Positions 2,547 to 17,405 of a stretch of DNA of 64,000 nt are shown piece by piece. A program made the position numbers and the translations under genes. The notes under the pieces are model-generated. The model saw only the letters and a program-made list of their open reading frames with translations. It was not told the origin of the DNA and ran no database searches. The first letter of the stretch is position 1. Each line of letters begins with the position of its first letter. The stretch spans positions 434,001 through 498,000 of the forward strand of contig CASFQA010000001.1 of assembly GCA_949296775.1 (NCBI GenBank), written 5' to 3'. The stretch is from an uncultured bacterium. GTDB taxonomy: Bacteria > Bacillota_I > Bacilli_A > RFN20 > CAG-826.

Positions 2547-2573
2547 GGGGAGGAGCGATCCTCCCCTTTTCTT
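2547..2573 (+). terminator. Rho-independent terminator of thrS
   Basis: Perfect 8-bp stem GGGGAGGA/TCCTCCCC with loop GCGA, followed by TTTTCTT. It ends between the converging thrS and the long minus-strand operon. Confidence 0.9.
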
Positions 2574-3261
2574 ATACGATATGGTTCTTCTTATAGTCAG
2601 AGGCCAAATAAGAAAGGCGGTTCAAGGCCAATAGGAGCAGCAAGAAGCCGATGTATATCCCAACTTGGGTAACGTAAATCGCCCAAGTGGGATAGGAAGA
2701 GAAGACATAGCTAAGCAATGACCCGTCGAGGATCATGACCAAGGCTTTGCCGTTGGGATCGAAATAAGGGATGGATATATACCCGTTTATTTGGAGCCAA
2801 TTCATGAATAAGGCCAGGGCGGCGACGATGATCGGGAAGACCATGTAACGCTTCTTGCATTCGAACCCGTAAAACAATAAATAGAGGGACAAAAAGAACA
2901 GCAGCCCATGGGTGAAGATGCCGCGGATGACGATGGGCAGGCTCATGTTGTGAAGGAAAATGGCGGGATTGAGCATGACCCCGATCAAATACCCTAAGGC
3001 CGAGATGAGCCCCAAAGCCCCGGAGCCGAAGTAAAAGGGCTTGAGGAAGAAAGTCAGCGAGACCCCGATGATCAAATAGCTTAAATGGCTTAGTTCGGTC
3101 GGGACCAAGGGGGTATAGATATATTCGATGATCTTCCAGATAAGCAAGATGCCGGCGACGATCCGACAGACGATCGAAAAGGCGGGCCTTTGGCGATGAA
3201 AAAGCAAAAATATCAGCAGAAACCCGACAAACGTAAGCGGAACCGCATAACGCATCCACAT
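2572..3261 (-). CDS. Multi-spanning membrane protein, YwaF/TMEM164-like
   Basis: A 229-residue product that is almost entirely hydrophobic, with six or seven predicted membrane segments. I chose the ATG at 3261 because it begins just after the stop of the upstream gene (3264) and has GAGG before it; a longer reading from 3336 would overlap that gene by 70 bases. The spacing of helices and the C-terminal pattern (an Asn before the last pair, then a 'YPTWAIY' segment) resemble the TIGR02206/YwaF family, whose role is unknown. It is the last gene of the eleven-gene operon, so it may anchor or assist the exported proteins encoded upstream. Family assignment is tentative. Confidence 0.6.
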   Translation of the reverse strand: MWMRYAVPLTFVGFLLIFLLFHRQRPAFSIVCRIVAGILLIWKIIEYIYTPLVPTELSHLSYLIIGVSLTFFLKPFYFGSGALGLISALGYLIGVMLNPAIFLHNMSLPIVIRGIFTHGLLFFLSLYLLFYGFECKKRYMVFPIIVAALALFMNWLQINGYISIPYFDPNGKALVMILDGSLLSYVFSSYPTWAIYVTQVGIYIGFLLLLLALNRLSYLASDYKKNHIV

Positions 3262-3263
3262 GA

Positions 3264-5795
3264 CTAGGACCTCGCCGATAGCTCGCTTAACGATGGGGTT
3301 TGCCCAAAATAAGGGGCTTGCTCCGGATCGTAGCAATAAAAGACATAATCCTCGAAGCCAAAGATATTAGATGCAGCCCGTGAAAGGGCGACTACCATAG
3401 TCGAATAGATGGCTTCGTGATGATCCATGAACTCGTTGTCAGGAACCATAACCGCCTTCCTCGATAAAGTTTCCCGGTAGCAATTAAACGCCTCGATTTT
3501 CAAACTCGATTTCAGGCTTTCATCAAGAACGACATCACTGAGATTGGTTCCGCCACCCATCTTCATAATCGGAGTCGCGATGTAATCATCTTGGCCGACG
3601 CGATAAACCGAAGAGGAACGAGAAAGCATTTGCCGAAGCGGCAAATAATCATCTTCGCCGACATTGGCGGGAATATCGGGTACCCCGCCATGAAGATTGA
3701 TAAACGTATCAATATCGTCGTAGATTAACGAATCGAAACCGAGATCGGTGGTCTTTTGGTAGGTATAGAACCGGTTGTCGCCTTCGAACGCAACCAAGCT
3801 CGGCGCCATAGTTCTCGCCAAACCTGTCGGGATATCCTGCATATACATACCGAGAATTAGTTTAAACATCGATGAAATAGAGGCTTCGAGGAAAGGACCG
3901 TTGCAATACGAATCGATAATGACTGGAGCAACATAGCAATCGCTGAAGAAACAGTCTCGTATTAATAATTCGTTATAGTACTTTTTGTTGCCTGAAGCAT
4001 CGACATAGCCGTTTTCGTTGGTTAAAGCTTCCTGAATTATTTCCGTTTGATCGATAATCTGATCAAACGTCATGCTGTCACGAGGAACGTAAGTATGCAT
4101 CAAACCGTCCCCTACGAATACGTTTGCTTGATTATTGAGAAAAACGCCATTAGTCAAAACCGAATCCGCTCGCCCGTCCTTTAAATTTTCTGGTTTAAAC
4201 GATCCGGAGAAATCGCCAGGCGAAAGATAATTGAAAACAATAGTTTCGTGTTGTTTGCCATAAGCATCGGAATAAGTAATCTTTTTAGAATAATCGACCT
4301 TGTTAGATTCGTTGGCGCCCGTCTTAATGCCGAATTCTAAGCACTTTTGCAGTAAGCAATTATCAACTTCCGTCAAAGAGGAATAGCTTCGAACTAGAGT
4401 TCGAGCCGAGGATATAACCGAATTGGAAACCCTTACGTTATCTCCCAGTATCTCGATTCCTGTTCCAGCAGTAAAAAGATTTTGGTAATTGTTGCCGAAA
4501 TCGGCATTCCGAAGTCGCAGGTTGTCGATGGTGATGTTATCTCCGTCAGCATAAATCAAACTGTTATCCTGGCCATAAACGACCAGCAATGGCTCAACTC
4601 CAGAAATCTGCGAATCTCCATAAGGGGTATATGGGTTACCGGCTGAAATATAAATAAGCGGACCTCGGAAGATATCTTTCCCATCGACGCCGAAACTCGG
4701 GACGATCGTTCCATCCTCCATTGTCTTAAAACTCGATGGATAGCAAAGATCGTGGCCATTGATCAAGAACCCGTTGCCATAAAGAGAGTGGCGGAGACGG
4801 ATGCCGGCATGGAGGGTGATGCCGATGTCATAGGATGTCTTGCTTGAATTATTCCACCAAGAAGCAAAATCATGGTTATAGGTTGCCTCGAAGTCGTAAA
4901 CATAGTTTTCCGGATCGACAACCCCATCAATCTCGCCGAACACCGCGACGTCTTTCCGGCTAGCCTCTGGCAATTTATCGTAGTTTTCTTTTGAATCGAG
5001 GTTAACGTGAAGCACCACCGGCTCCCCAGCAGCAGAAAGATTAGTCGCCTTGATCAAATCGGCGTAGGAATAGACGTTGACCCCCTCCACGGCGGTGAAA
5101 GTTATCTCGGTAGGCGGGGTTGAGGTGGAGAACGGGTGGGTGAAGCGGAAATAAGCCTCTCCGGGTCCGAGGACTGTGACTTCGCTCTTATTTAGGTCGA
5201 TTCGAAGATTGTCGGAATGTTCCAAGGCAAAGTCGTTGATGCCCATTCCGTCGTTACCGACCACTCGGGCCGAGAAAGTGAACTTAGCTTGATGTTTGGA
5301 ATAAGGGGAATCAATCGAATCGTAAGCCATATCGTCGGTTCCCCAATAATAGGTCCGCCCGATACCGGCGGAGGAAAAAGGATGGTCGAGGGTAACGACA
5401 ATCGCCCCATCCTCGCCATAGACCAAGGCGGTGAACCGCTTGCTGACGTTGCCTTTTTTATTCGAGGCGATGACTTCGGCCTGTCCCTCCGCCAAAGGGA
5501 CCAAATAATAACCATCGGTCCGTTCTTCAATCCGAATGATATCCTGTTCCTCGGAAACGGCCTTGAAAGAAATATCATTGCCGTTCGAAAGCGGGTATTT
5601 CTCGTTATAAACCGGTGTGGCTTCAAGCTTAACCGCCCCATCCTTCAATCCAAAAGGCTGCAAAGAATCGTACGGCAAGATTATGTCATCGATATCTTGC
5701 TCAACCCCTTTGATCAGGTAATCGCTGGTGGCAAAAGCCAAAAAGGCGATTAAGAACGGGAAAATCAGCAATATCGCGAGGACGCCTTTCTTCAT
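3264..5795 (-). CDS. Large membrane-anchored surface protein with beta-helix-like region
   Basis: An 843-residue protein with one N-terminal hydrophobic segment (about 4-25, no lipobox), so it is either secreted or tethered outside. Residues about 30-230 are beta-rich, with an Ig-like flavour. From about 320 to 500 there are short repeated turns such as 'NITIDNLRLRNADFGNN' and 'NVRVSNSVISSA', the pattern of right-handed parallel beta-helices of the pectate-lyase fold. No catalytic residues can be named. Its ATG overlaps the stop of the ABC permease gene in ATGA, so the two are probably translated together. The neighbouring exporter makes an exported or matrix role likely; the true substrate or ligand is not known. 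Confidence 0.65.
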   Translation of the reverse strand: MKKGVLAILLIFPFLIAFLAFATSDYLIKGVEQDIDDIILPYDSLQPFGLKDGAVKLEATPVYNEKYPLSNGNDISFKAVSEEQDIIRIEERTDGYYLVPLAEGQAEVIASNKKGNVSKRFTALVYGEDGAIVVTLDHPFSSAGIGRTYYWGTDDMAYDSIDSPYSKHQAKFTFSARVVGNDGMGINDFALEHSDNLRIDLNKSEVTVLGPGEAYFRFTHPFSTSTPPTEITFTAVEGVNVYSYADLIKATNLSAAGEPVVLHVNLDSKENYDKLPEASRKDVAVFGEIDGVVDPENYVYDFEATYNHDFASWWNNSSKTSYDIGITLHAGIRLRHSLYGNGFLINGHDLCYPSSFKTMEDGTIVPSFGVDGKDIFRGPLIYISAGNPYTPYGDSQISGVEPLLVVYGQDNSLIYADGDNITIDNLRLRNADFGNNYQNLFTAGTGIEILGDNVRVSNSVISSARTLVRSYSSLTEVDNCLLQKCLEFGIKTGANESNKVDYSKKITYSDAYGKQHETIVFNYLSPGDFSGSFKPENLKDGRADSVLTNGVFLNNQANVFVGDGLMHTYVPRDSMTFDQIIDQTEIIQEALTNENGYVDASGNKKYYNELLIRDCFFSDCYVAPVIIDSYCNGPFLEASISSMFKLILGMYMQDIPTGLARTMAPSLVAFEGDNRFYTYQKTTDLGFDSLIYDDIDTFINLHGGVPDIPANVGEDDYLPLRQMLSRSSSVYRVGQDDYIATPIMKMGGGTNLSDVVLDESLKSSLKIEAFNCYRETLSRKAVMVPDNEFMDHHEAIYSTMVVALSRAASNIFGFEDYVFYCYDPEQAPYFGQTPSLSELSARS

Positions 5796-7390
5796 AAACG
5801 ACGCCCCTCATAGGAAAGGAAAAGCCTTTCGCCCTTGAATAGGAACACAATCAAAGTCGGAAGCAAGAACAAGGCGGATAGCCCCAACATTAAGGCATAG
5901 GGCAGATCGGCATAGGAATAAGTCAGCAAGGTCGCGAGCGCAGGAAGCCCGGCTAAAATGAATGGCGTTAAAAACGACAATAAAGAAGAAAAGCCGGCCG
6001 AGGCTGAGCCATAACGAAGTTCCGACAAAACATAATTCAAATAAATCCAGCAAAGGTAAAATAAACCCGCGAATAAAACGTAAGCGAACTGGACCCATGA
6101 GAGGTTCCCTAAAATCGCCAGGCTTAAAGCGGCGGCAAAGAAGGATAACGATGACCATAGCAGGGGGACCAATACCTTAACGGAGAGCTGAGCCCGCCCC
6201 GTGACAGGAAAGGTCTTCATCAATAAGACTTGTCGCCCTTCTTTATTAAGACTTAAGCCGCCAGAGCCGTTGATGACTGAAAGGAAAAGGAAAATCAAGG
6301 CAATCTCAATGAAGAAAGGGAAACCCGGAAAAAGGCTTAGAACATAATTGAGGTTGCCGAGGTGAAAGATCGCATCGACCGCAATAACCACCGAGACGAT
6401 CAAAAAAGGAGAAGCCAAAACCAACGGGAAAAAGGAGAAAATGCCATCGGCGCTGGAGGTGAGCACCAAGAGTTCTTTCTTCATCAAGGCCGGCAATGGG
6501 CGTGAAAGCGGCTTGACCATTACCTTAGCCCGCCTTTTCCGGTTAGCTGACGGATTCTTCAAAAATCGCGAAAAAGCGAAGAAAAGGATCGGGAGAGAGA
6601 TCGCATAAACCGATAAAGGAACCAGGAAAAGGATGAGAAGATAATCCCAGCTGGCACCGCGGCCAGCTGTCTTAACGATAGTAACGAAAGGGTAGAGCCC
6701 TTCCCCTACCTTCGTTAAGGTCGTAACGGATGAATTGGATAGCAAGGCATCGATGGAATTGCCGGAGACCAAAGCGACGAACAAATTGAGCACGTAGGCA
6801 TAAAAAGCGGTCAAAGCCAACATTAATGCAAAGGAGACAACCAGCAAGACAATTGAATTCCGTTTAATGAAATTAGCCAAGGCACTGAAAGGAAAAGTTA
6901 GTAAAAAGGCCGCCCCCAAACTCATCATCGCGATCAGGATAACGTAGATGAAGGCAATGATATAAAACACGAAAAGCGAACCATACTTCAGCCCAAAGCA
7001 AAGAAGAATCGGCAAAGAGAAGGAAAAATGAAAAGCCAAAGAAAGAATATAACAATAAGCGGATTTGGCAAAAAAGATGGAACCATTGTCAATCGGCAAT
7101 GGGCAAAGAACGGCTCGCTCCTGAGAATTAAAGAAGCAACGAGAAGTTTTGGGCAGCAAATAAATGACGGAAGCAAAAAATATCAAAAACAAAACAATGG
7201 CGGTCAAGGCCTGATTGACCCCTTTATAGGCGGAGAATTTATCGTAAGCCTGGCAATAGATGAAACACTCAACGGCGATGAAAGCGCCCAAACCAATGAT
7301 AGCCAAAGCGATCTGAGTTATCTTCGAAAGCAATTTGCCTTTCTTTAGCAACGGCAAAGAGGATATTTCGCGAAGCAAAACGGCAATCAT
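5792..7390 (-). CDS. ABC exporter permease, about 12 membrane segments
   Basis: A 532-residue polytopic membrane protein. It starts in ATGA overlap with the ATPase gene and ends in ATGA overlap with the large surface protein gene. The long, evenly hydrophobic layout with a basic cytosolic loop in the middle (near 285-300, 'NRKRRAKVMVK') fits ABC-2-like permeases of the PF16949 type found in Bacillota. With the ATPase it would form an exporter. Nothing in the sequence tells the substrate; candidates from context are the surface proteins themselves, a polysaccharide, or a toxic peptide. Confidence 0.75.
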   Translation of the reverse strand: MIAVLLREISSLPLLKKGKLLSKITQIALAIIGLGAFIAVECFIYCQAYDKFSAYKGVNQALTAIVLFLIFFASVIYLLPKTSRCFFNSQERAVLCPLPIDNGSIFFAKSAYCYILSLAFHFSFSLPILLCFGLKYGSLFVFYIIAFIYVILIAMMSLGAAFLLTFPFSALANFIKRNSIVLLVVSFALMLALTAFYAYVLNLFVALVSGNSIDALLSNSSVTTLTKVGEGLYPFVTIVKTAGRGASWDYLLILFLVPLSVYAISLPILFFAFSRFLKNPSANRKRRAKVMVKPLSRPLPALMKKELLVLTSSADGIFSFFPLVLASPFLIVSVVIAVDAIFHLGNLNYVLSLFPGFPFFIEIALIFLFLSVINGSGGLSLNKEGRQVLLMKTFPVTGRAQLSVKVLVPLLWSSLSFFAAALSLAILGNLSWVQFAYVLFAGLFYLCWIYLNYVLSELRYGSASAGFSSLLSFLTPFILAGLPALATLLTYSYADLPYALMLGLSALFLLPTLIVFLFKGERLFLSYEGRRL

Positions 7391-8136
7391 CGAGTTTCCT
7401 TTCGCCCCACTAGATTCAAGAAATAATCGGAGACTTGATAACGTAAGGATGGATCGGACTTAAGATCAAAGACAGTATTGATGACTCCGTCGTAAATAAT
7501 AGCAATCCGGTCGGCTAAAGCCGAAACCATCTCGATGTTGTGACTGGCGATGAAAACGGTCCTCCCATGATTGACGAACTCTTTCATCATCAAGGTCAAT
7601 TCATGGGAAGTAACGGCGTCAAGGCCGACCGTCGGCTCGTCCATGACCCAGATTTTTGGATTATGGATAAGCGAAGCAATAAGACCAAGTTTTTGCTGCA
7701 TGCCATGAGAATATTCCTTGGATGGACGGGATAGGTCATCGGCGGTCAAATCCAATCGGGACGAAAGATAGGAGAGGTTTTTATCAAACGTTTCGTCGCC
7801 GACTCCATAAATGCTGGCGATGAATTCCAAATACTCAAGGCCGGACATGTCGGTATAAGAAACCGGTTCAGACGGAACATAGCCAATCACCTTCTTGACC
7901 TCGATTGGGTCCTTTTTTATCGAGTGACCATCGATGACGATATCGCCCGAATCAAAGGTCTTCAGGCCGATCATCGAATCGATTGTCGTCGATTTACCAG
8001 CCCCATTCGTTCCAATGAAAGCGAAAAGCTCACCCTCTTTGACATCAATGTTGATGCCTTTGAGAACTTGCTTTCGACCATAGTTTTTCTTGAGGCCGGT
8101 TATGGATATGGCGAAATTGACGTTTACCATGACCAT
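7387..8136 (-). CDS. ABC transporter ATP-binding protein
   Basis: A 249-residue ATPase that powers the permease encoded next. Walker A is GTNGAGKST (42-50), the signature is YSHGMQQK in place of LSGGQ (this form is common in ABC-2 exporters), Walker B is IWVMDEPT, and the switch His lies in ASHNIE. The first ATG (8136) and a second two codons later (8130) are both possible. Either start lies at or inside the 3' end of the upstream gene (stop at 8124), so translation probably depends on coupling, as no good Shine-Dalgarno is seen. Confidence 0.93.
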   Translation of the reverse strand: MVMVNVNFAISITGLKKNYGRKQVLKGINIDVKEGELFAFIGTNGAGKSTTIDSMIGLKTFDSGDIVIDGHSIKKDPIEVKKVIGYVPSEPVSYTDMSGLEYLEFIASIYGVGDETFDKNLSYLSSRLDLTADDLSRPSKEYSHGMQQKLGLIASLIHNPKIWVMDEPTVGLDAVTSHELTLMMKEFVNHGRTVFIASHNIEMVSALADRIAIIYDGVINTVFDLKSDPSLRYQVSDYFLNLVGRKETR

Positions 8137-10952
8137 CCACTCGGGCTGACACTGCCCTTAATCTTCCATTCGTTTTGCTCGTAGGCGAAACTGCGATAAA
8201 CATAACGAGTGCCGCTTTCGACATTCGAATCAAAACCTGTGAATTTCATAATCGAGCCGGAAGAATCGCTCAATCTAAAAGGAATAAAAGCGCCGTGATA
8301 GAAAATCATTGGCTTCCCACCATACGAAATAACGTGGTTGCCCGCATCGGTAACTTGCTTGAAACTACCGGAAAGCGAATTGATGCCCAAGGTGTTCTGA
8401 GCATTATTGTTGGCATAATATATATTTTGGGATACGGCGTTAGGGCTATCGAAAATAAAAGCATACAAATTCCCGTTGCCTACATCGGTTATTAAACCCG
8501 AGGTCCGATCGTAAAAACAATTTCGTCTCCCGGAACTATTAGGAAGTTCAGTCAAAACTTCGCCATTTGAAATTAATGGGGCGGAATAGAAACCGGCAAT
8601 ATTCACTTGATGCAAATTGATACTAAGCCCGACTTCTGCAGTCGAAGGCCCAGTCATGACGCCACAGCCAGAAAGATCCACGTTTACGTCCTTTATTTCG
8701 TTAAGAAAGGAATTATTATCGCGAAGATTGATTTCTCCGGCCAAAACATAGGGAGCTTTATTCCCAGAAGCAAAATTCAACTGGGCATCACAGTCGAAAC
8801 GCGCCGGTTTGTTTGAATAATAATTCCAAAAATTAGTCCACGAAAAAGCCCAATTACCGTTTCCTTCGTTATTCTGTTTTTCCTTTTTTCGCGTGTCGAA
8901 CCAGCCATAGCGCCTGCTGTCATCAAACTTGACGATATTACTGCCTTCATACTGATAATTCGAGTTGCCGTCATTAAGATTGTAATAATCCTGACACAAG
9001 ATGATGCCGGCCGAGCAATAATTAAATTGGTTGTCGGCATAATCCATATAAGAGCCAATGTTTTGTTGAATTAAGTCGTCAATATAAAAACTGCTACTGG
9101 AAAAATTCAACGTAGACGCCGCATCGGCAAAAAGGTAACAACCGGGGGCAAAAGTGAACTGCTGGTAAAAAGTTATATCTGAGTTATATGAATAAAAGTC
9201 GAAATATGGCGGTACCCAAATTGAGAATTTTTTGGAGCTGATCGAAATATCGTTCCCTCCAAATTCGACCGACATATAAAAACCGCCGATGTGAACGTCG
9301 GCATTTTCAAAAATCCAACTAAATCGCTGATAGGCAATATTCATCAATGTGGTATTTGACTTACTGTTCTTAACCTGATCATAAAGTTCAGTATTGTAGT
9401 ATGTCTTCCGAATAACGCGGCCACCAGTGTTCTTCATTTGAAACATGAAACAGTTTTCGGAACCGATGACGGGAGATCCGTTATCAGGAACCGGCCCTAC
9501 CAGCCCGACATCAAGGTGGAAAGCCCCCATGCTTGCACCGAAAGACAAAAGCAGTTTGCCGTAAAATTTTGACCCGTATTCACAAATTACGGTGCAGTCC
9601 AAATATGGACAGCGAAACATTTGCATAAAATCCATGCCTTGCGCGTAGATTTCCGGAAGAGAATTTTCCCTCCACGCATCCTCGACAACCAAGTTGGTGT
9701 ACATAATTGAGCCGTTGCGCAAAACAATGTTGCCGGTCCTGCCTTCCGAAGAATCGGTAACCGACCCAAACGAATCGATCATCGAACCGTTTTCGACAAT
9801 TAGGTCAAAACCGTTCAAATCGATTTCGCAATAGGGGCCGACCATGAACCCTTGATAATTTAATTGAGTCCATTGCAGCGGATCGCCAGCGTTAGCTTCA
9901 TAGGACCTGACTGTAAATGCAAAGCCGGTCAAACCCGCAAGGGTAATCGAGGTCCCGGTGAAAACAACGTCACAATTCAATGTCAATCGGTTTGCGCAGT
10001 ATTCGGACTGATACTCTGCTCCGATTGAATCGCCAAAAACAATAGCATCCGATTTCCAAGGCGATCCAGACATGTCGCTTAAATTAATTGGCTTATAAAA
10101 TTCGTTGTATTTGTCTTCCTGACCAGGCACATAATCGGAATCATGGGTCTCGAGTCCAATGGAGCTGTGGCTGCGAGTATAAGATACGTTTGTTCCGTTT
10201 TGGAAGGCCCACTCAGTAACACCGGCGCCCCATGCACCATCATTATACGTTTGTCCGTAATACCCTATTTGCCGTCCAGCGTGATTGTTACTTACACGTG
10301 AACCAGAATAGCCAACTGCATTAGTGTTTCGCCGTGCAATCATAAAGTCTTTGTTATTGTAAGAACTATCTAAGGTTAAACAGTCTTCTGTATCGCCGTT
10401 GTCCCCTTTGACATGGAAAGTCGTTCCGCCTCCGGCCAACCAAAAACAATTGTTGGTCAAAGAAATCGCGTTGTCCAAACCCGCCAGATAGGCTGCATCG
10501 CCTCCACTGAACTTAGGCGTAGAGGTATTGATGTCGGTATTGACGACCCCGCTTTGTGTTTGGGGCTGATTCGTCCTATATTCTTCCCAGTATTCAGCCA
10601 ATAACGTAGTAGAGGAATTAACAACAGAGGCAGTTAAAGTCAAATCGTTTTCTAAAATAAAATGGTTATTAAGATATTGACTGCCACTAGCCCAAGTATA
10701 AACAGAGTTGTTTCTAACAGTAAAAGGGGCATCTTTAAGGCTTAAAACATATCCTTTGGGAAAACTCTTTGTTTCGGTTTCAGAATCCCACTTAAAAGTA
10801 ACATTAACCTCATTATCGGCTCCTTCGCTAACGTCTTGGGAATTTTGGTAACCGAGGAAATCTTCAAGATAAAGTTTTCCTAACGAAGGCATTATCAAGC
10901 AAAAAACACCTGCCAACCCCGTTATGATTGGAACCAAACGCCCTTTCATCAA
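8124..10952 (-). CDS. Large surface protein, Asn/Ser/Tyr-rich, beta-helix-like
   Basis: A 942-residue protein with a single N-terminal hydrophobic stretch (about 8-26) and no lipobox. The rest is rich in Asn, Ser, Gly and Tyr, with many short beta-strand turns (for example 'CEIDLNGFDLIVENGSMIDSFG' region near 375-395 and 'GNIVLRNGSIMYTN'). This suggests a solenoid such as a beta-helix on the cell surface. It does not look like any enzyme I know. It is flanked by a SipW-type secreted protein (ATGA overlap at its start) and the ABC ATPase (13-base overlap at its end). Low GC compared with thrS. Its general architecture resembles that of the 843-residue protein two genes later, but I cannot claim homology. 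Confidence 0.6.
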   Translation of the reverse strand: MMKGRLVPIITGLAGVFCLIMPSLGKLYLEDFLGYQNSQDVSEGADNEVNVTFKWDSETETKSFPKGYVLSLKDAPFTVRNNSVYTWASGSQYLNNHFILENDLTLTASVVNSSTTLLAEYWEEYRTNQPQTQSGVVNTDINTSTPKFSGGDAAYLAGLDNAISLTNNCFWLAGGGTTFHVKGDNGDTEDCLTLDSSYNNKDFMIARRNTNAVGYSGSRVSNNHAGRQIGYYGQTYNDGAWGAGVTEWAFQNGTNVSYTRSHSSIGLETHDSDYVPGQEDKYNEFYKPINLSDMSGSPWKSDAIVFGDSIGAEYQSEYCANRLTLNCDVVFTGTSITLAGLTGFAFTVRSYEANAGDPLQWTQLNYQGFMVGPYCEIDLNGFDLIVENGSMIDSFGSVTDSSEGRTGNIVLRNGSIMYTNLVVEDAWRENSLPEIYAQGMDFMQMFRCPYLDCTVICEYGSKFYGKLLLSFGASMGAFHLDVGLVGPVPDNGSPVIGSENCFMFQMKNTGGRVIRKTYYNTELYDQVKNSKSNTTLMNIAYQRFSWIFENADVHIGGFYMSVEFGGNDISISSKKFSIWVPPYFDFYSYNSDITFYQQFTFAPGCYLFADAASTLNFSSSSFYIDDLIQQNIGSYMDYADNQFNYCSAGIILCQDYYNLNDGNSNYQYEGSNIVKFDDSRRYGWFDTRKKEKQNNEGNGNWAFSWTNFWNYYSNKPARFDCDAQLNFASGNKAPYVLAGEINLRDNNSFLNEIKDVNVDLSGCGVMTGPSTAEVGLSINLHQVNIAGFYSAPLISNGEVLTELPNSSGRRNCFYDRTSGLITDVGNGNLYAFIFDSPNAVSQNIYYANNNAQNTLGINSLSGSFKQVTDAGNHVISYGGKPMIFYHGAFIPFRLSDSSGSIMKFTGFDSNVESGTRYVYRSFAYEQNEWKIKGSVSPSGWSW

Positions 10953-11584
10953 ACCATCCTCACTAAGAAACTAGAAAGAACCATTGAAGAAAGCGCGCTA
11001 ATATCGGGAATCGAAAATTCGAATACGCAATTGAATTGAATCGGACTTGTGGCGTTATTGCCGGTCTTCTCAACGACATATTGAAGACTGTTTCGATCAT
11101 AACTGGCTCCGGCAAAATGATCGGCAATATAGTAGGACGCGCTGATTCCGTTCGACTCAAATACCCTTTCCGCAGTACCGCATCGTTCATTTTGACTGCC
11201 CGGGGTCAAATATACGGAAGAATAATCCAAATATTCACTGAATTCGCCAATAAGCTCGAATTCAATTTTTTCGTATTGATGGGCGCTAGCAAAAGAACGG
11301 AGAGAATTTAATCCGCCCTGTGCAAATTCAAGAGTCGCGATAACAGAATACGTATAAACGCCATGTGAGCTTGATGCAGAAGTTAATACCGATTCAATCG
11401 ATAAATAGGGCACATCGGAATAATAAGAATCAATTGCGTAATCAATAGTTATATTGCCAAAAGCAGTTGAGTAAGAATGGTTGCCAACCCCCGGGTTATA
11501 TTCTATCGCCCCATAAGTCGCACTAACCGCGCAGAAAGGCAAGCAAAGAGCTAGCAACATAGATGGAAAGCGGCGGTTTTTCAC
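10949..11584 (-). CDS. Secreted protein with SipW/TasA-type signal peptide
   Basis: A 211-residue protein. The signal region is basic, then hydrophobic, and ends in SATYGAI (21-27). The TasA-like protein at the head of the same operon has the near-identical GATFGAI, the type of site cut by SipW-like signal peptidases. The mature part is beta-rich with no known domain. It ends with a short hydrophobic run (SALSSMVLSSFLVRMV), which could be membrane-associated. The start and stop both overlap neighbours by four bases (ATGA). I infer that it is a substrate of the signal peptidase encoded upstream and a minor matrix or fibre component. Confidence 0.6.
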   Translation of the reverse strand: MKNRRFPSMLLALCLPFCAVSATYGAIEYNPGVGNHSYSTAFGNITIDYAIDSYYSDVPYLSIESVLTSASSSHGVYTYSVIATLEFAQGGLNSLRSFASAHQYEKIEFELIGEFSEYLDYSSVYLTPGSQNERCGTAERVFESNGISASYYIADHFAGASYDRNSLQYVVEKTGNNATSPIQFNCVFEFSIPDISALSSMVLSSFLVRMV

Positions 11585-12690
11585 GCGCTAACCTCCTCAA
11601 AACAAGCGTATACAGTTAACGATCGCGTAATGGGCGTAAGGTCGGTAAGCCTGCCAGAGGTGGGATCCTTCGGACCAACGGAAGAGGTATACCACCCCAA
11701 GAAAGTCGCCCCATCCTTAGTAGCCAATGGAAGACTTGGAATTGCCGATCCATATTGCACATCGACATATGGAACGTCGTCCCAAAGCAAAACACCCCCA
11801 TTGGTAACGGCATCAAACGTCACGCGCAGCAAAGGCTTCTCCTCACCAAGCGTCGCTACCTCTCGCCAAACGTAATTTGAATACCGATAGATTATCAATG
11901 CGGTCAAATCAAAATAATAATCGCCATCCTTGGCTCCATCGACGAAAGTTGGCTTCTGATTCCCGCTGAACCAACGAGTGCCGGATTCCGGCATATCGAA
12001 CTCCAACACAACTGGGTTTTCCAAATCATCGGTATAAGTAATCGTAAGATAATATTTGCCAGCGTATTCATCGGTTACGGCAACAATCGATTCGATCCCC
12101 CTGCCATCTTTTCCGTCCTCGCCATTTTTATAGGGCAATCGGATTTCAGTTGGTTTGACAGTCGGATCCGTATAGGTGATGGTAATTATGATATCCCCAT
12201 TGTTCTCGGTCGTCTGACTGACCGAGGAAATGCCAACCCCATCTTTTCCCTGCGGCAAGGCGAAGGCGTGTTCTTCTCCATCGCTGGTGAGGAAAGTGAT
12301 GGTCGTCAATCCGGTCTCTTCGTCATAAGAGGAAGAAAAACTTTCGATGCTATTGGCATTTGGAATTTCCCAAATCGAAGGATCAAGGGTCGGATCGGTA
12401 TAGGTTATGGTAATGACCAGCCCCGATCCGTCTTTCGCTTCCTCACTTTCGATGGATGCGATGCCAATCCCTTCGGGGCCTTGGTCACCTTTATCGCCTT
12501 TGGGGATAGTGAAGGTGACGGTCGGAACGTCCTCATCGGTGAAGACGATGGAGACCTTCTTGCTGCCGTCGTCGAGATTCTCAACGATAACGTCTTGGAT
12601 ATATAGACCTTCCTCGGTCCCAAGCAGCCCGCAGGAAGAAAGGGAGAAGGCCGAAACCAATCCGAGCAAAAGATTCTTAAGTTTACGCAT
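11581..12690 (-). CDS. Lipoprotein with collagen-like motifs and InlB B-repeat-like C-terminus
   Basis: A 369-residue lipoprotein; the lipobox ends LSSC (Cys20). It has a repeating design: a beta segment ending 'ITITYTDPT', then a Gly-rich turn such as GDKGDQGPEGIGI, GKDGVGI or GEDGKDGRGI, seen three times. These are short collagen-like or phage-tail-like connectors. The last 80 residues ('RVTFDA..GGV', 'ATFLGWYTS', 'VYACFEE') match the InlB B-repeat/Listeria-Bacteroides repeat pattern of surface proteins. It likely stands on the outside of the membrane as a rigid rod. Its start overlaps the zinc-ribbon gene by eight bases. Confidence 0.75.
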   Translation of the reverse strand: MRKLKNLLLGLVSAFSLSSCGLLGTEEGLYIQDVIVENLDDGSKKVSIVFTDEDVPTVTFTIPKGDKGDQGPEGIGIASIESEEAKDGSGLVITITYTDPTLDPSIWEIPNANSIESFSSSYDEETGLTTITFLTSDGEEHAFALPQGKDGVGISSVSQTTENNGDIIITITYTDPTVKPTEIRLPYKNGEDGKDGRGIESIVAVTDEYAGKYYLTITYTDDLENPVVLEFDMPESGTRWFSGNQKPTFVDGAKDGDYYFDLTALIIYRYSNYVWREVATLGEEKPLLRVTFDAVTNGGVLLWDDVPYVDVQYGSAIPSLPLATKDGATFLGWYTSSVGPKDPTSGRLTDLTPITRSLTVYACFEEVSA

Positions 12691-13777
12691 CTTTCCGCCC
12701 TCCTAATCTAAATAGCAAATCCGGGGCCCATAGGCGACTTATGCCGTCTTTGACATATGGTTGATAATGCGCATGACACGCAGGGCAATTCCTCTCACTA
12801 GATAATCGCTCGCCGCATAAAGGGCAAAATCCGGTATCGGAGGCATTAAGTCCGAGCAAGCGAATCGGGGAGGAATAATCGTTGGACTGAAATAGCGAAA
12901 TCGCCGCTGATCCACCGGCGAAAGCAATGTTCATCGACGGGCCAATGAAGCCGCTTTCCAAAGTTATGCCGAACTTCCTCGAATCCCCGTTGACAAGATT
13001 GTTGACCCTTAGTTCCAGCTTGCCGTCATATCGGCGCACCCTAAACTCAAAGTCGCCATCAACGAAAACGGCCGGCAAAGAAGGGGAAATTGACTTTGCG
13101 TGGGTCCGGAAGTCCTCCAAAAGCCGCTTCAACACCACATCATCGTCCTGAGAATAAGAGGTAGTGAGATATAGGCGGTATAAGGACCCATAAAGCGGAT
13201 CGTAGTTCAAGACGTTGTTTGGGTGGACTTGATCATCGGACAACGGCTTAATGGAGGAATAAAAGGCTGACGAAGACAATAAACCAGCGATTTCATGCAG
13301 TCGCCTAATCGCCCCCATCTGGATGCTCAACTCGCCAAAATCCGATGCAAAGGAAAAAGCTTGCTCGGCGTTGCCCCATTTAGAGAAGCGAAGGGGGCCA
13401 ATCGCGGTTTCCAAACTGCCGTTTTGCAGGAGACTTCGATAAGCGAGGCTGGCTTCTTTCTCAATCAAATCGAGGCAAAGCTTCGCGAAACGGTTTTCAT
13501 AGGTCCCGAGTTCATCCTCCACGAGCTCGGCGTATATCTTCTTTGGCGTCAGCCGTTCGTTCAGGAACCCGAAATTTCGGCTTTGCTTGGCCGTTTGGGC
13601 GAAAAGACGGGGATTGAACTTTCGGGCTTTAGTCGCGTCTTCGAGATAAACCTCGGTCCGAATGCCTTTTCGAGCACGCAGAAGAATCTCGCTGAGGACA
13701 TCCAAAGCCCGCTCCGCTGCCTGGAGGTCGAATTGGCCAAGGGGCCGATATGTCGAAACCGATTGCTGAACGATCAT
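12683..13777 (-). CDS. DUF2357-like protein with C-terminal zinc ribbon, partner of McrB-like ATPase
   Basis: A 364-residue, probably cytosolic protein. The 'YENRF' motif (93-97) followed by an amphipathic helix is typical of DUF2357 proteins that pair with McrB-like ATPases. No PD-(D/E)XK nuclease motif could be found, unlike McrC. The C-terminus carries four Cys in two CxxC pairs (318, 321, 331, 334), a zinc ribbon, followed by a conserved-looking tail. Its ATG overlaps the ATPase stop (ATGA), so the two are made together and probably form one complex. Function inferred only from context; it may couple the ATPase to a client rather than cut DNA. Confidence 0.6.
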   Translation of the reverse strand: MIVQQSVSTYRPLGQFDLQAAERALDVLSEILLRARKGIRTEVYLEDATKARKFNPRLFAQTAKQSRNFGFLNERLTPKKIYAELVEDELGTYENRFAKLCLDLIEKEASLAYRSLLQNGSLETAIGPLRFSKWGNAEQAFSFASDFGELSIQMGAIRRLHEIAGLLSSSAFYSSIKPLSDDQVHPNNVLNYDPLYGSLYRLYLTTSYSQDDDVVLKRLLEDFRTHAKSISPSLPAVFVDGDFEFRVRRYDGKLELRVNNLVNGDSRKFGITLESGFIGPSMNIAFAGGSAAISLFQSNDYSSPIRLLGLNASDTGFCPLCGERLSSERNCPACHAHYQPYVKDGISRLWAPDLLFRLGGRKDA

Positions 13778-15570
13778 CGATTCCTCCTGAGCTCAGATTC
13801 AATGGTGGCGATGGTCTTTGGCATTTTCTCGCCGTAGGTTTTCTTCACATATTCCTCTAGTTCAACAAGGCCGGAATGATAGGCCATGTCAACCCTTCCC
13901 TTAGCTTTTCTAAGCACTTTAAAGGCAAATAGATAATCGAGCGCTCCCTCTTTGTCGCCCCGCATCGAAGCATAGACCGGAACCAAGGAAGCGGTTTGGA
14001 CCAAAAGACGGTTGCCGGTTTTGATGCCTAAGCAGACATCGGCTTGGGATAGCAAAGCCATGAATTTCTTAATCTCGTCTTCGCCTAGCCGGAAATCCTT
14101 GGATTCCCTGGCGGCGGTAGCCAAAGCATTAAGATCTTTGTACGAAAGGGGGGTCGGTTTGGCTTTGGAGGCAAACTCAATCGGTTCGTGGTACTGTTCG
14201 AAATCGAGAACGATAGCCCGGTCGATGACCTTATCGGTGATGGCGAAAGTCGAGTCATCGGTATTGGCGGTCCCGACAAAGCGAGTATTGGGAGTGAGGA
14301 TCAAGTCCCCGTTAGCCAAATTAGTCGGGGTATCCTCGGGCAGATTAATCAAATGAATCCTCCGTTCGTCCTCAGGGAACTCCAAGACCGAAAGGAAGGG
14401 GGCGAAATAATACTCGACTCGCGAGATGTTCATTTCGTCAAGGACCATAAGATTAAGGCGATTGGCCCGGAAACTCGCTTCATATAGCCGCTTTAGGAAT
14501 TCGGTCTCGAAGTAGACGCCGGTGAAATCATTGAAATAGCCAAGCAGATCATCTTTGTCCTTATAGGTCATCTGAATTGACTCAAAGAATGCGGTTTCGC
14601 CGATGAATTTGGCAAAATAACGCGGCAAGGAAGATTTACCGGTGCCAGAAACGCCTTCCAATATCGTCAACGGAGTAGTCATCAATGCCGATACGAACAT
14701 CGCCAAGTCGTTCAAGGAATAATATAAGGAGCAAGATGTCGCGAGATAATTCTGCAAATCCCCAACCAGTTTCTTTGTCGTGAGGCCATTCGGAAGGAAA
14801 GGGAGGCTCTGCTCGCCGGCGACGAATCGCTCATCAATCGCGGTAAGGCTCGGAAATACCCGTTTTCTGTCATAGCCTTCAACGATGCCACCACCGGCGA
14901 TGAGGGCGCCGGAAACGCTTGCGATTCCTCCATTGCCCTTGCCATCTTCCGGTTTCTTGTCGAAAGAATCGGCGATGTCCTTGTCATCTTTCTTCTCCGA
15001 CTCTTCCGCTTCCGGATTCGTCTCGTTCAATTTCTTCCCGCCTGCCATATTAACTGTTTCTCGATTAACAGTCGGCAACGCCAAAATGAATAAGTAGGCA
15101 GCAATGACGATCGCGTAAATCGCAATGAAAGCCAGCAAAGCGATAAAGATGGATTCGAAGGCAAAAGCGATGTTTTGGACATAACCATCACCGCCTTCAG
15201 GGATCGAAAACAAAGATCCGACCCCGAAGAAAACAAGGAACCCCCCTACGCCGATTAGGATTACGTAAGGGAACATCTTCGAGGAAATAAGCGTCTGATC
15301 ATGGGAATGGACGCTGTTGACGATGGAGAAGAGGGCGATGACTCCGAAAACAACGAATAAAGCAATAAATAGAATTAGGATATAAGCCGATATCGAGGCT
15401 TCGATGGTTGGAAAGCCAAACAGTTCCCCAATCGAGGCAATCAGGTTGTTTTTCTTGAAGACAATGTAATTGGCGTCTAAACCGCCAGCAACGAAAAAGC
15501 TAAGCAAAACGAAGAAAATGGCAGAAGACGTAATTGCTTTTTGCCAACGAGTGAATTTAAGAATCTTCAT
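13774..15570 (-). CDS. Membrane-anchored McrB-like AAA+ ATPase
   Basis: A 598-residue protein with two parts. Residues 1-175 hold about four membrane helices. After a charged linker (about 175-235), the rest is an AAA+ domain of the McrB/AAA_5 branch: Walker A GVSGTGKS (near 306-313), Walker B LMVLDEMN with the McrB-like continuation ISRVEYYFAPFLSVLE (near 375-396), and sensor 1 TANTDDST (near 432-439) followed by DKVIDRA. The start has AAGGAG upstream and overlaps the signal peptidase stop by 14 bases. McrB itself is soluble and works in DNA restriction. Membrane anchoring, and a locus full of secreted proteins, point to a remodelling or assembly role at the membrane. Confidence 0.8.
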   Translation of the reverse strand: MKILKFTRWQKAITSSAIFFVLLSFFVAGGLDANYIVFKKNNLIASIGELFGFPTIEASISAYILILFIALFVVFGVIALFSIVNSVHSHDQTLISSKMFPYVILIGVGGFLVFFGVGSLFSIPEGGDGYVQNIAFAFESIFIALLAFIAIYAIVIAAYLFILALPTVNRETVNMAGGKKLNETNPEAEESEKKDDKDIADSFDKKPEDGKGNGGIASVSGALIAGGGIVEGYDRKRVFPSLTAIDERFVAGEQSLPFLPNGLTTKKLVGDLQNYLATSCSLYYSLNDLAMFVSALMTTPLTILEGVSGTGKSSLPRYFAKFIGETAFFESIQMTYKDKDDLLGYFNDFTGVYFETEFLKRLYEASFRANRLNLMVLDEMNISRVEYYFAPFLSVLEFPEDERRIHLINLPEDTPTNLANGDLILTPNTRFVGTANTDDSTFAITDKVIDRAIVLDFEQYHEPIEFASKAKPTPLSYKDLNALATAARESKDFRLGEDEIKKFMALLSQADVCLGIKTGNRLLVQTASLVPVYASMRGDKEGALDYLFAFKVLRKAKGRVDMAYHSGLVELEEYVKKTYGEKMPKTIATIESELRRNR

Positions 15571-16474
15571 TTTGCTGAACTCCTTTGTCGATGGTTAATG
15601 ATGTATTCGTCGAGGTTCGCTTTTTATCAATCGTACCCTCGAAAGAAGAATTGAATTCGATGAACCCGTCCGGTGATTCGATAGTGATTTTGACGGCTCC
15701 GGCCTTGAAGAGATCTTTGATTTCGGCTAAACGCTTTTCTTTGATGGTTTCCGATTTTGAGAAATAGACCTCGGCGGCGATGATCACATAGGCTAACGCC
15801 GACATGCCAAGTATCCCATAATCGTCCTGGAGGTAGAAGGTCAAAGCTCCTAACGCAGGAATTCGAATCCCAGTATAACGGCCGTTGATCATGCCTAAGG
15901 TGATTTTAACCCCATCAGTGCCCGGCCCGGCATTGGCGTCGCCCCGAGTTATGAGGTATCCGTCGCCGATTTCAACGACCCGGTGGATGACGTTGATTCC
16001 CTCCGGATGCTTATAGCTTACGATATCGTAAAGTTGAATTTCGTCGAGCGAGTCTACTTTTTCTAGAACGACAATGTCATTGACGTAGATTCGATCGTCG
16101 CGCCCTTCTAGATAATCCGCGTTAGCGGGATCAACTGATGCCATCGATGGGGTTTTTACCGCCTCCAAGGAATAAGGTATCCCGAGATTCGGCATCGCGC
16201 GCGTGAAAATCAAAACGGCGACTGCCAGGAACAGCGCCCCCACGAAAATGTCGAATATAATGGAACCGGCCTTAGCCCAGCGCTTCCGCGTCGGGCTTTG
16301 GCTGGCTTTGCTTATTTGGTCCTCGACTATCTCGAAATCCGCTTCCCCCGAAGCCATCTCTTTCCGAGACAACCTCCACATATAAATAAGGAAGCCGGTT
16401 AAAAGAACCAAGAGGATGATCACCGCGACAAGAATCGCGATGAAGGTTGTGGATAAGAAGATCGGCAAGCCCAT
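15557..16474 (-). CDS. Signal peptidase I, SipW-like
   Basis: A 305-residue membrane protease of the S26B (ER/SipW) type. There is a first membrane helix at about 9-32, a second at about 71-91, then the catalytic region: Ser110 in TPSM, His164 in NVIHRVV (His in place of the Lys of bacterial P-type enzymes) and Asp179 in TRGDAN. A third helix lies near 215-232, followed by a cytosolic tail of about 70 residues. It should cut the signals of the TasA-like protein encoded just upstream and of the SATYGAI protein encoded downstream. The long N-terminal and C-terminal cytosolic parts are larger than in Bacillus SipW (about 190 residues). Confidence 0.88.
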   Translation of the reverse strand: MGLPIFLSTTFIAILVAVIILLVLLTGFLIYMWRLSRKEMASGEADFEIVEDQISKASQSPTRKRWAKAGSIIFDIFVGALFLAVAVLIFTRAMPNLGIPYSLEAVKTPSMASVDPANADYLEGRDDRIYVNDIVVLEKVDSLDEIQLYDIVSYKHPEGINVIHRVVEIGDGYLITRGDANAGPGTDGVKITLGMINGRYTGIRIPALGALTFYLQDDYGILGMSALAYVIIAAEVYFSKSETIKEKRLAEIKDLFKAGAVKITIESPDGFIEFNSSFEGTIDKKRTSTNTSLTIDKGVQQNEDS

Positions 16475-16487
16475 CTAGGGCCCCCAA

Positions 16488-17132
16488 TTAATTGTTCAAA
16501 TTGACTTTGACGGTAGCGGTGATTTTAGCCCCATCGACCGCGGTCTTGAAGTTGTTCAGCAAAGTGGCCGCTCCCGAGACATCCATGCGAGAAGCGCCAA
16601 CTTCGGTGTTGATGTAGCTGATAATCCCGCCGGTAAAAGGAGAAGTCCAAGACAGGTCGCCGGTGACAGTGAGGGTCTTCTCGGTTTCGGACCCAGTGCC
16701 TTCGCCACTGAACGCAGCTACTTCCTGATTGCTAATCGTCGGCAAAGTCAAATAATCCTCAGCATCTGGATGAGCAGAGTCCCAATCCAAAGTAATGGAC
16801 ACGCTCTTCCAAACGGATGGGTCGCCAGTAACGGTGAGATCAATGCTGAACTGTAAATCGTTTTGAACATTGGTGGCGCTGGCCGGGGAGCCGGTCTTAT
16901 CGGCTTCGGTCTGCCAACCATCGACCGTGATGCTTCCGTCATTGACTGCCGCTTCCAGATTGACAACTTGGTTTTGGATGGTAACGGTACCAATAGAAAT
17001 CCCATCATTGATGTTCTTCTCGGTGGAGCCGCCAGTAAGAACGATAGCGCCGAAGGTTGCGCCAACAGTTCCGACGCCGCCAAGCAAAGCAACGGCTGAG
17101 ACGATTAATTTCCTTTTTGAGGTTTTGGTCAT
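16488..17132 (-). CDS. TasA/CotN-like SipW-dependent secreted protein
   Basis: A 214-residue protein that begins MTKTSKRKL, then a hydrophobic core and the motif GATFGAI (24-30), the hallmark of SipW-dependent TasA/CotN signals. The mature region is beta-rich with repeated 'TVTGD' segments (twice) and no Cys, consistent with a fibre-forming jelly-roll such as TasA. I chose ATG 17132 because AAGGAGG lies nine bases before it; the TTG two codons upstream sits too close to that site. It is the first gene of the operon and probably its most abundant product. Confidence 0.8.
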   Translation of the reverse strand: MTKTSKRKLIVSAVALLGGVGTVGATFGAIVLTGGSTEKNINDGISIGTVTIQNQVVNLEAAVNDGSITVDGWQTEADKTGSPASATNVQNDLQFSIDLTVTGDPSVWKSVSITLDWDSAHPDAEDYLTLPTISNQEVAAFSGEGTGSETEKTLTVTGDLSWTSPFTGGIISYINTEVGASRMDVSGAATLLNNFKTAVDGAKITATVKVNLNN

Positions 17133-17405
17133 AAGCAATGACCTCCTTTATGCGCTATAGGTTATATGGACAAGACCGGTGCGAAAAAAACGGTCCTTTT
17201 GCGGTTATTCATAAAATTTGCCTTTATGATTGACAACCAAAACCTCATTGCGGACTTTTCACCCTGCTTACCGGTTTACCGATATATGACCTAGAGCCCT
17301 CCGCCTTCGTTGCAGATAGTCCACAAAATTGGTATTTTCCGAACGCTATGCCTATTTTGTTCGTAAAAACCAGCTTTTTATATATAAGAAAATATATATC
17401 TGCTC
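17133..17405. other. Divergent intergenic region before the surface operon
   Basis: No gene is seen here. The minus strand carries AAGGAGG for the TasA-like gene, but no convincing -35/-10 pair for it. An imperfect inverted repeat GACCG (17174-17178) / CGGTC (17191-17195) surrounds an A-run and could be an operator close to the start of the operon. The right half is A+T-rich, with TATATA runs near 17381-17400. Confidence 0.4.

Follow-up and report, generated by a model that had tools for sequence, protein, structure and literature searches.

The 64,000-nucleotide (nt) stretch analyzed here (the window; positions 434,001 to 498,000 of contig CASFQA010000001.1, assembly GCA_949296775.1, from an uncultured bacterium of the CAG-826 lineage of Bacillota_I) contains a gene for an AAA+ protein, designated TM-AAA, in which a four-helix transmembrane (TM) anchor is predicted to tether a nucleoside triphosphatase (NTPase) of the NxD type of McrB to the cytosolic face of the membrane. 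Its neighbors encode a McrC-like partner with a DUF2357 fold and a SipW-type signal peptidase. On balance, it seems likely that TM-AAA and its partner are a McrBC-related pair, polytopic and lacking a nuclease, with a role in SipW-type export and assembly at the cell envelope. Thus, a defense-type motor has probably been reused for building the bacterial surface. The two proteins and their parts are:

13774..15570, minus strand: TM-AAA, four-helix membrane domain plus NxD-type McrB-like NTPase (598 aa, ATG start)
15070..15549, minus strand: four transmembrane helices, residues 8-167 (hydropathy, AlphaFold2 model, positive-inside charges)
14878..15069, minus strand: charged, disordered linker, residues 168-231 (predicted local distance difference test score, pLDDT, < 50; composition; lowest conservation)
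13777..14877, minus strand: McrB-like NTPase and its helical lid at the C-terminus, residues 232-598 (hidden Markov model, HMM; tree; hhalign; fold)
14632..14655, minus strand: Walker A, GVSGTGKS, residues 306-313 (G306 and S308-S314 invariant in the orthologue alignment)
14428..14451, minus strand: Walker B region, residues 374-381, ending in VLDEMN (D378, E379, and N381 invariant)
14257..14265, minus strand: NxD signature of the NxD McrB branch, N436-T-D438 (invariant in the orthologue alignment)
12683..13777, minus strand: McrC-like partner with DUF2357 fold (approximately residues 14-210), beta domain, and C-terminal zinc ribbon (Pfam, fold, hhalign)
12776..12826, minus strand: zinc ribbon CxxC...CxxC of the partner, C318-C334 (four cysteines invariant in the partner alignment)

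The reading frame of TM-AAA is one in a run of genes on the same strand. Hydrophobic segments are present at residues 13-31, 66-84, 103-121, and 145-163, with Kyte-Doolittle means of 2.1-3.2 and no others above the threshold. The 36 four-TM orthologues have the same four segments, with the exceptions of L063 (three segments) and L045 (one extra; loci in the comparison are numbered with the prefix L). An AlphaFold2 model built from 36 sequences (pLDDT 82) has helices at residues 8-31, 60-89, 99-120, and 123-167, disorder at residues 167-231, and a well-folded NTPase beyond. Lysines plus arginines average 3.6 in the N-terminus of the 36 orthologues, 1.6 in loop 1, 3.5 in loop 2, 0.5 in loop 3, and 3.8 after the fourth helix. 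This charge alternation predicts a four-span protein with both termini inside and, hence, a cytosolic NTPase. The TM domain, used alone as a query, found 42 strong matches (E < 1e-39) in 38 of the 147 genomes of the order. All of them lie in open frames of 597-687 aa, i.e., the domain is always fused to the NTPase, and the fusion is therefore not due to chance. These data bear out the original prediction, made from the DNA sequence of the window, of a McrB-like AAA+ domain fused to four helices that span the membrane. The prediction of about 175 residues of helices is to be corrected: the helices occupy ~160 residues, and a linker of ~65 follows.

Conservation among the 36 orthologues amounts to 3.26 bits in the NTPase core and is lowest, at 1.42 bits, in the linker. 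Outside the core, the cytosolic N-terminus is the best conserved part (2.60 bits), and the first extracytoplasmic loop (2.00 bits) is as conserved as the helices. The conservation of these two regions suggests that TM-AAA has partners on both faces of the membrane. Hydropathy and the model revealed no modified-base-binding N-terminal domain on TM-AAA, but the four helices and the disordered linker instead.

The NTPase itself is assigned by sequence comparisons to the NxD branch of McrB and not to MoxR. Its Walker A (residues 306-313), Walker B (VLDEMN, 376-381), and sensor (N436-x-D438) motifs, all noticed earlier in the sequence, are intact and invariant or near-invariant among orthologues. 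NxD is present in all 143 tabulated entries of the family and the NxD plasmid yardsticks, and in 65 of the 65 entries labeled four-TM, whereas the three classical McrB yardsticks all have NxxD and MoxR fits neither pattern. MoxR is represented by a single yardstick, which an AAA_3 search found in one of 40 genomes of the class. With the NTPase profile, the window protein scored 481 bits, single-TM relatives (L178-L197) 345-386, plasmid NxD McrBs 110-274, Escherichia coli McrB 24, and MoxR 10. Likewise, hhalign matched the NTPase to an NxD McrB (L202) at 100% (E 1e-48, lid included), to E. coli McrB at 91.8%, and to MoxR at 13.8%.

In a tree of 147 entries, the four-TM proteins form a clade of 69 (support of 99 in the Shimodaira-Hasegawa-like approximate likelihood ratio test, SH-aLRT), which is sister to a single-TM clade of 63 (96); both lie inside the NxD branch, a split supported at 98*. 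The tree was a quick search with SH-aLRT, no bootstrap, and long outgroup branches. Its four-TM clade comprises the 65 labeled entries plus L063, L115, L117, and L118, which are shortened or have three segments. The tree does not include four classical McrBs missed by the motif filter (L210-L212, L214) or RavA (a partial gene). In Pfam, AAA_5 was the only match to TM-AAA better than 0.01 (E 0.007, under its cut-off), and it was found at E 0.05 or better in 34 of the 36 orthologues; AAA_3 did not match TM-AAA, nor was it among the families listed for the 36 orthologues (25 of 45). A sequence search of the PDB gave only a chance match with the single sequence, and with the orthologue alignment chance matches ranked above McrB (E 0.78). 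Structure alone does not separate McrB from MoxR: the model aligned with 2r44, which we take to be a MoxR-like protein, at Z 16.5 (279 residues aligned, root-mean-square deviation, rmsd, 4.4) and with E. coli McrB at Z 15.3 (182 residues, rmsd 2.8), and MCM and RavA (15.1) were tied with the latter. Membership of MoxR was therefore rejected on the sensor motif, HMM, hhalign, and tree, the fold alone being tied, in line with the earlier assignment to McrB.

The partner matches Pfam DUF2357 (E = 1.2e-4 in the window protein), as do 17 of 35 orthologues. When its model was compared with 997 aligned chains, the top four were all McrC (Z 8.1-8.7 over 133-137 residues), and the next, unrelated chain reached 6.4; by Foldseek alone, McrC ranked 11th (E 0.19) and came first only after VIA re-ranking. 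By hhalign, the partner alignment matched the DUF2357 protein of an NxD system at 97.3%, with SipW as a negative control at 0.1%, and gave nothing against the single E. coli McrC sequence (0.5%). The link to McrC is therefore carried by the fold, Pfam DUF2357 in 17 of 35 members, and the match to the NxD partner. Residues Y93-E94-N95 and the four zinc-ribbon cysteines are invariant in the alignment, and regular expressions found both patterns in 34 of 35 members. Among the Pfam families listed for the 35 members (25 of 32), none is a nuclease. In segment 211-317, which the fold search barely covers, no residue is 90% conserved. Together, these observations make a working nuclease in the McrC-like partner unlikely.

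The pair lies within the following operon:

16488..17138, minus strand: small exported subunit with N-terminal hydrophobic segment, one to seven copies in relatives (no family match)
15557..16474, minus strand: SipW/archaeal-type signal peptidase I (NCBIfam TIGR02228 3.8e-10, SipW 3.1e-7)
11581..12690, minus strand: lipoprotein with collagen-like repeats and Flg_new (List_Bact) repeat (Pfam Flg_new 5.1e-8)
10949..11584, minus strand: exported protein without family (no Pfam match; one relative in compared loci)
8124..10952, minus strand: large exported surface protein, 942 aa (comparison of relatives' loci)
7387..8136, minus strand: ATPase of an ATP-binding cassette (ABC) exporter (Pfam ABC_tran 1.2e-24)
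5792..7390, minus strand: permease with 12 TM segments, presumed to work with the ABC ATPase (hydropathy; weak ABC2_membrane match, 1.9e-4, in orthologue L037)
3264..5795, minus strand: exported beta-helix-like surface protein, 843 aa (Pfam Beta_helix 1.7e-4, under cut-off; N-terminal hydrophobic segment)

The order is exported subunit, SipW peptidase, TM-AAA, DUF2357 protein, lipoprotein, exported protein, large surface protein, ABC ATPase, permease, and beta-helix protein, with junctions of +13, -14, -4, -8, -4, -4, -13, -4, and -4 nt, i.e., most genes overlap, by 4-14 nt. The LSSC lipobox and the collagen-like stretches of the lipoprotein, whose gene is conserved in relatives, were identified by eye. 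The peptidase of the window scores below the curated cut-offs of the TIGR02228 and SipW models. The Ser-Met, His-Arg, and Gly-Asp motifs are kept in all 36 SipW proteins, and all 17 aligned members retain Ser, His, and Asp and match the NCBIfam models for SipW and archaeal-type signal peptidases. A TasA label for the exported subunits was dropped, as family and PDB profile searches gave no support: 26 members had no profile match to TasA/camelysin in NCBIfam and Pfam, and a profile search of the PDB listed no TasA. The last 73 nt of the beta-helix gene overlap the gene for a small multi-TM protein (window 2572-3336, minus strand), whose relatives occur near the operon in few loci, at times on the opposite strand.

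Within 6 kb, a SipW gene is found in 66 of 69 distinct four-TM entries (two of the three misses are at contig ends) and a DUF2357 gene in 68 (the single miss is at a contig end). SipW lies directly upstream (within 150 nt) in 60 entries and not in six, with three at contig ends; in four of the six (L049, L056, L066, L085), a surface-protein gene intervenes. No SipW match was found in the 18 classical or plasmid McrBC yardstick loci. Phylogenetic distances of SipW correlate with those of the AAA protein at r = 0.92, compared with 0.85 for the beta-helix protein, 0.84 for the permease, 0.81 for DUF2357, 0.73 for the ABC ATPase, and 0.62 for the lipoprotein, and for each gene none of 500 shuffles was as high; the value for SipW fits inheritance as a unit. 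The strongest sign of joint function is the fusion of DUF2357 and SipW into predicted single proteins at four single-TM loci of R. albus and other Ruminococcus (L122:11232-14168; L130:11187-14159, Ruminococcus albus KH2T6; L138:2827-5748; L140:11181-14177, R. albus 8). The fused frames of 973-998 aa have DUF2357 at the N-terminal end and the SipW domain, with Ser, His, and Asp kept, near the C-terminal end; NCBIfam confirms SipW in the L130 fusion (3.5e-28). Operon and gene-fusion ties to SipW point to a restriction-type NTPase recruited to envelope work. As a setting for TM-AAA, the secretion or envelope role proposed from the sequence is strongly supported by the operon context.

Other readings of this setting have to be considered. 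Bcs1 and Msp1 are families named here for comparison: a membrane-anchored AAA protein beside a signal peptidase and short single-span precursors would suit a ring that extracts membrane-inserted precursors, or passes them on folded, for quality control rather than assembly. Such a role is unlikely here, as the NTPase is of the McrB type and has a DUF2357 partner. Alternatively, the pair might regulate ABC-2 export, of a surface polymer or an antimicrobial peptide for instance, with SipW and the subunits handling cargo. In four-TM loci the ABC genes are as conserved as SipW (yes/no/contig end: ABC ATPase 64/1/4, permease 63/1/5, beta-helix 62/1/6, lipoprotein 60/1/8, upstream exported subunit 62/1/6). 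However, ABC, permease, and beta-helix genes are absent from all 27 testable single-TM loci, where the NTPase, DUF2357, and often SipW remain. Thus, the ABC unit looks like an add-on, and regulation of the exporter as the role of the pair is very improbable.

Within the favored reading, i.e., service to SipW-type export and assembly, a mechanism can be outlined. McrC uses its DUF2357 domain to dock on McrB hexamers and activate them, as stated by Bell et al. (2024; PMC11090510). By analogy, the NTPase would form a ring under the membrane, on which the DUF2357 protein would be docked. The membrane helices might then relay NTP hydrolysis to the exported subunits and the SipW peptidase, which would drive or gate release, translocation, or polymerization of the subunits at the surface. 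The structure formed there could also include the ABC-2 exporter, the beta-helix protein, and the lipoprotein. TM-AAA would then be the energizer that the original prediction envisaged, a hexameric ring with nucleotide hydrolysis and an energizing step. The more specific proposal, that a McrBC-derived membrane motor, coupled to SipW via DUF2357, powers export and polymerization of SipW-processed surface filaments in Bacillota, is tentative and somewhat less likely to be right than wrong. If true, it would add an undescribed NTP-driven assembly machine, a Gram-positive counterpart of pilus motors that evolved from a restriction system.

Several points weigh against these interpretations. Ring formation, nucleotide use, the motor role, and action on an exported substrate are steps that we infer. 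Searches matched the exported subunits to no known filament family, and they are unlike TasA by profile, so that the filament, too, is something we infer. The window and L032-L066 supplied the sequences for the context profiles, and about half of the 69 four-TM entries therefore match by construction; the others (from L072-L121) are independent. Locus L100 has the four-TM NTPase and DUF2357 pair and none of the export genes. In the single-TM clade (many of whose loci are short), 59 of 63 entries have a DUF2357 gene nearby, but only 36 of 63 have SipW nearby, and the tandem-NTPase subclade has none; hence, the link to SipW is not universal. Finally, the AAA core matches the PADLOC defense-candidate model PDC-M26A (5.8e-35). 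This match, together with McrBC ancestry, a patchy distribution (the strong TM-domain matches in 38 of 147 genomes mentioned above), and several plasmid relatives whose restriction-like loci also carry methylase or helicase genes, would suit a membrane-tethered anti-phage system, either type IV restriction-like or abortive, that shares its operon with surface genes by chance; such a system would use the zinc ribbon as its sensor of nucleic acid and the membrane domain as its effector. However, E. coli McrB, used as a control, also matches PDC-M26A, though weakly (5.5e-4), so that the match marks the NTPase family and not its function. Moreover, scans of the ten operon proteins with profile libraries matched none to a nuclease, methylase, or helicase family, nearly all four-TM relatives have the same export genes, and DUF2357 is fused to SipW in the four loci described above. 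Gene content thus speaks against a defense system, which we regard as rather improbable, while ancestry, patchiness, and the PDC-M26A match keep it alive. As the sole clear exception throughout, L100 offers a natural test for a second role of the pair.

The closest described relatives are the CoCoPALM systems, in which McrB GTPases carry a fused FtsB-like transmembrane/coiled-coil domain and are linked with signal peptidases (Bell et al., 2024). The sections of this paper that were covered describe the NxD branch of McrB and its uncharacterized state, name CoCoPALM, and defer its characterization to a later paper; of ten papers that contain the name, judged by titles, only this article and its preprint can mean it in this sense. 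The existence of membrane-fused McrB GTPases also means that the earlier premise of McrB-type ATPases being soluble was too broad. TM-AAA shares with CoCoPALM the NxD-type McrB NTPase with a membrane segment, the DUF2357 partner, and the association with the signal-peptidase family, and the single-TM relatives (the second copy in the same genome, R. albus, and Lachnospiraceae) fit its description as far as covered. The four-TM form differs in having four helices and a disordered linker instead of the FtsB-like single TM/coiled coil (homology to FtsB was not scored), in forming a separate sister clade (SH-aLRT 99 against 96), and in adding the ABC-2/beta-helix/lipoprotein cassette and a short partner that ends in a zinc ribbon. 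It is not mentioned in the covered part of the main text of PMC11090510, and no printed account of the four-helix form or of this operon was found in a search that supplements and most subscription journals fell outside. We read the four-TM pair as a new polytopic, nuclease-less variant of a known but uncharacterized kind of McrBC. A second membrane architecture is thereby added to the CoCoPALM group, along with a defined operon, and the proposed envelope role of the McrBC pair is directly testable in culturable hosts such as R. albus.

Likenesses to other systems are more limited. The plasmid NxD McrBC/CoCoNuT-like systems (L199-L209) share the NTPase domain with lid and DUF2357, but have soluble N-termini (no TM segment in ten tabulated), restriction-like neighborhoods, and no SipW match. 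E. coli McrBC has the same B-then-C order, Walker motifs, and the McrC fold of the partner (Z 8.1-8.2), but its McrB carries NxxD, and its modified-base-binding N-terminus and PD-(D/E)xK nuclease, as described in the covered part of PMC11090510, are not seen here. The Bacillus SipW-TasA system likewise has a SipW-type peptidase (Ser/His/Asp) beside exported subunits with a hydrophobic N-terminus. However, the subunits of the window are not recognizable as TasA/camelysin, and the filament literature, in the part that was covered, names chaperones and no AAA motor. TasA-type fibers are not known to need a motor for their assembly.

An NTPase homologue is present in 93 of the 147 genomes of the order. 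Besides the strong matches, the scan of the order with the TM domain gave three of E 3e-4 to 6e-4, which are chance-like. In a class-wide draw of 247 genomes, strong matches were found in 16, five of them outside the order, and weak matches only in nine. A scan of genome contigs with the single TM-AAA sequence found no relatives. Among the best 80 of 564 matches from the scan with the alignment, the closest named one, at 62% identity, is from Candidatus Alloenteromonas pullistercoris (Bacillota incertae sedis). The second copy in the genome of the window (L067, C1:131000-150500) is a single-TM McrB-like/DUF2357 operon that contains a weak SipW-like gene and also encodes an EAL-domain protein, a phosphorylase-family protein, and several exported proteins. 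Seven loci (L071, L119, L126, L127, L133, L137, L148) carry at least two NTPase genes in tandem, usually with DUF2357 between them and no SipW near; this subclade possibly forms hetero-rings. At L046:106-2874, a relative of 923 aa, in which 11 predicted TM segments precede the NTPase, has a DUF2357-like gene of its own; it adjoins a four-TM operon and represents, on a long branch, a third membrane architecture.

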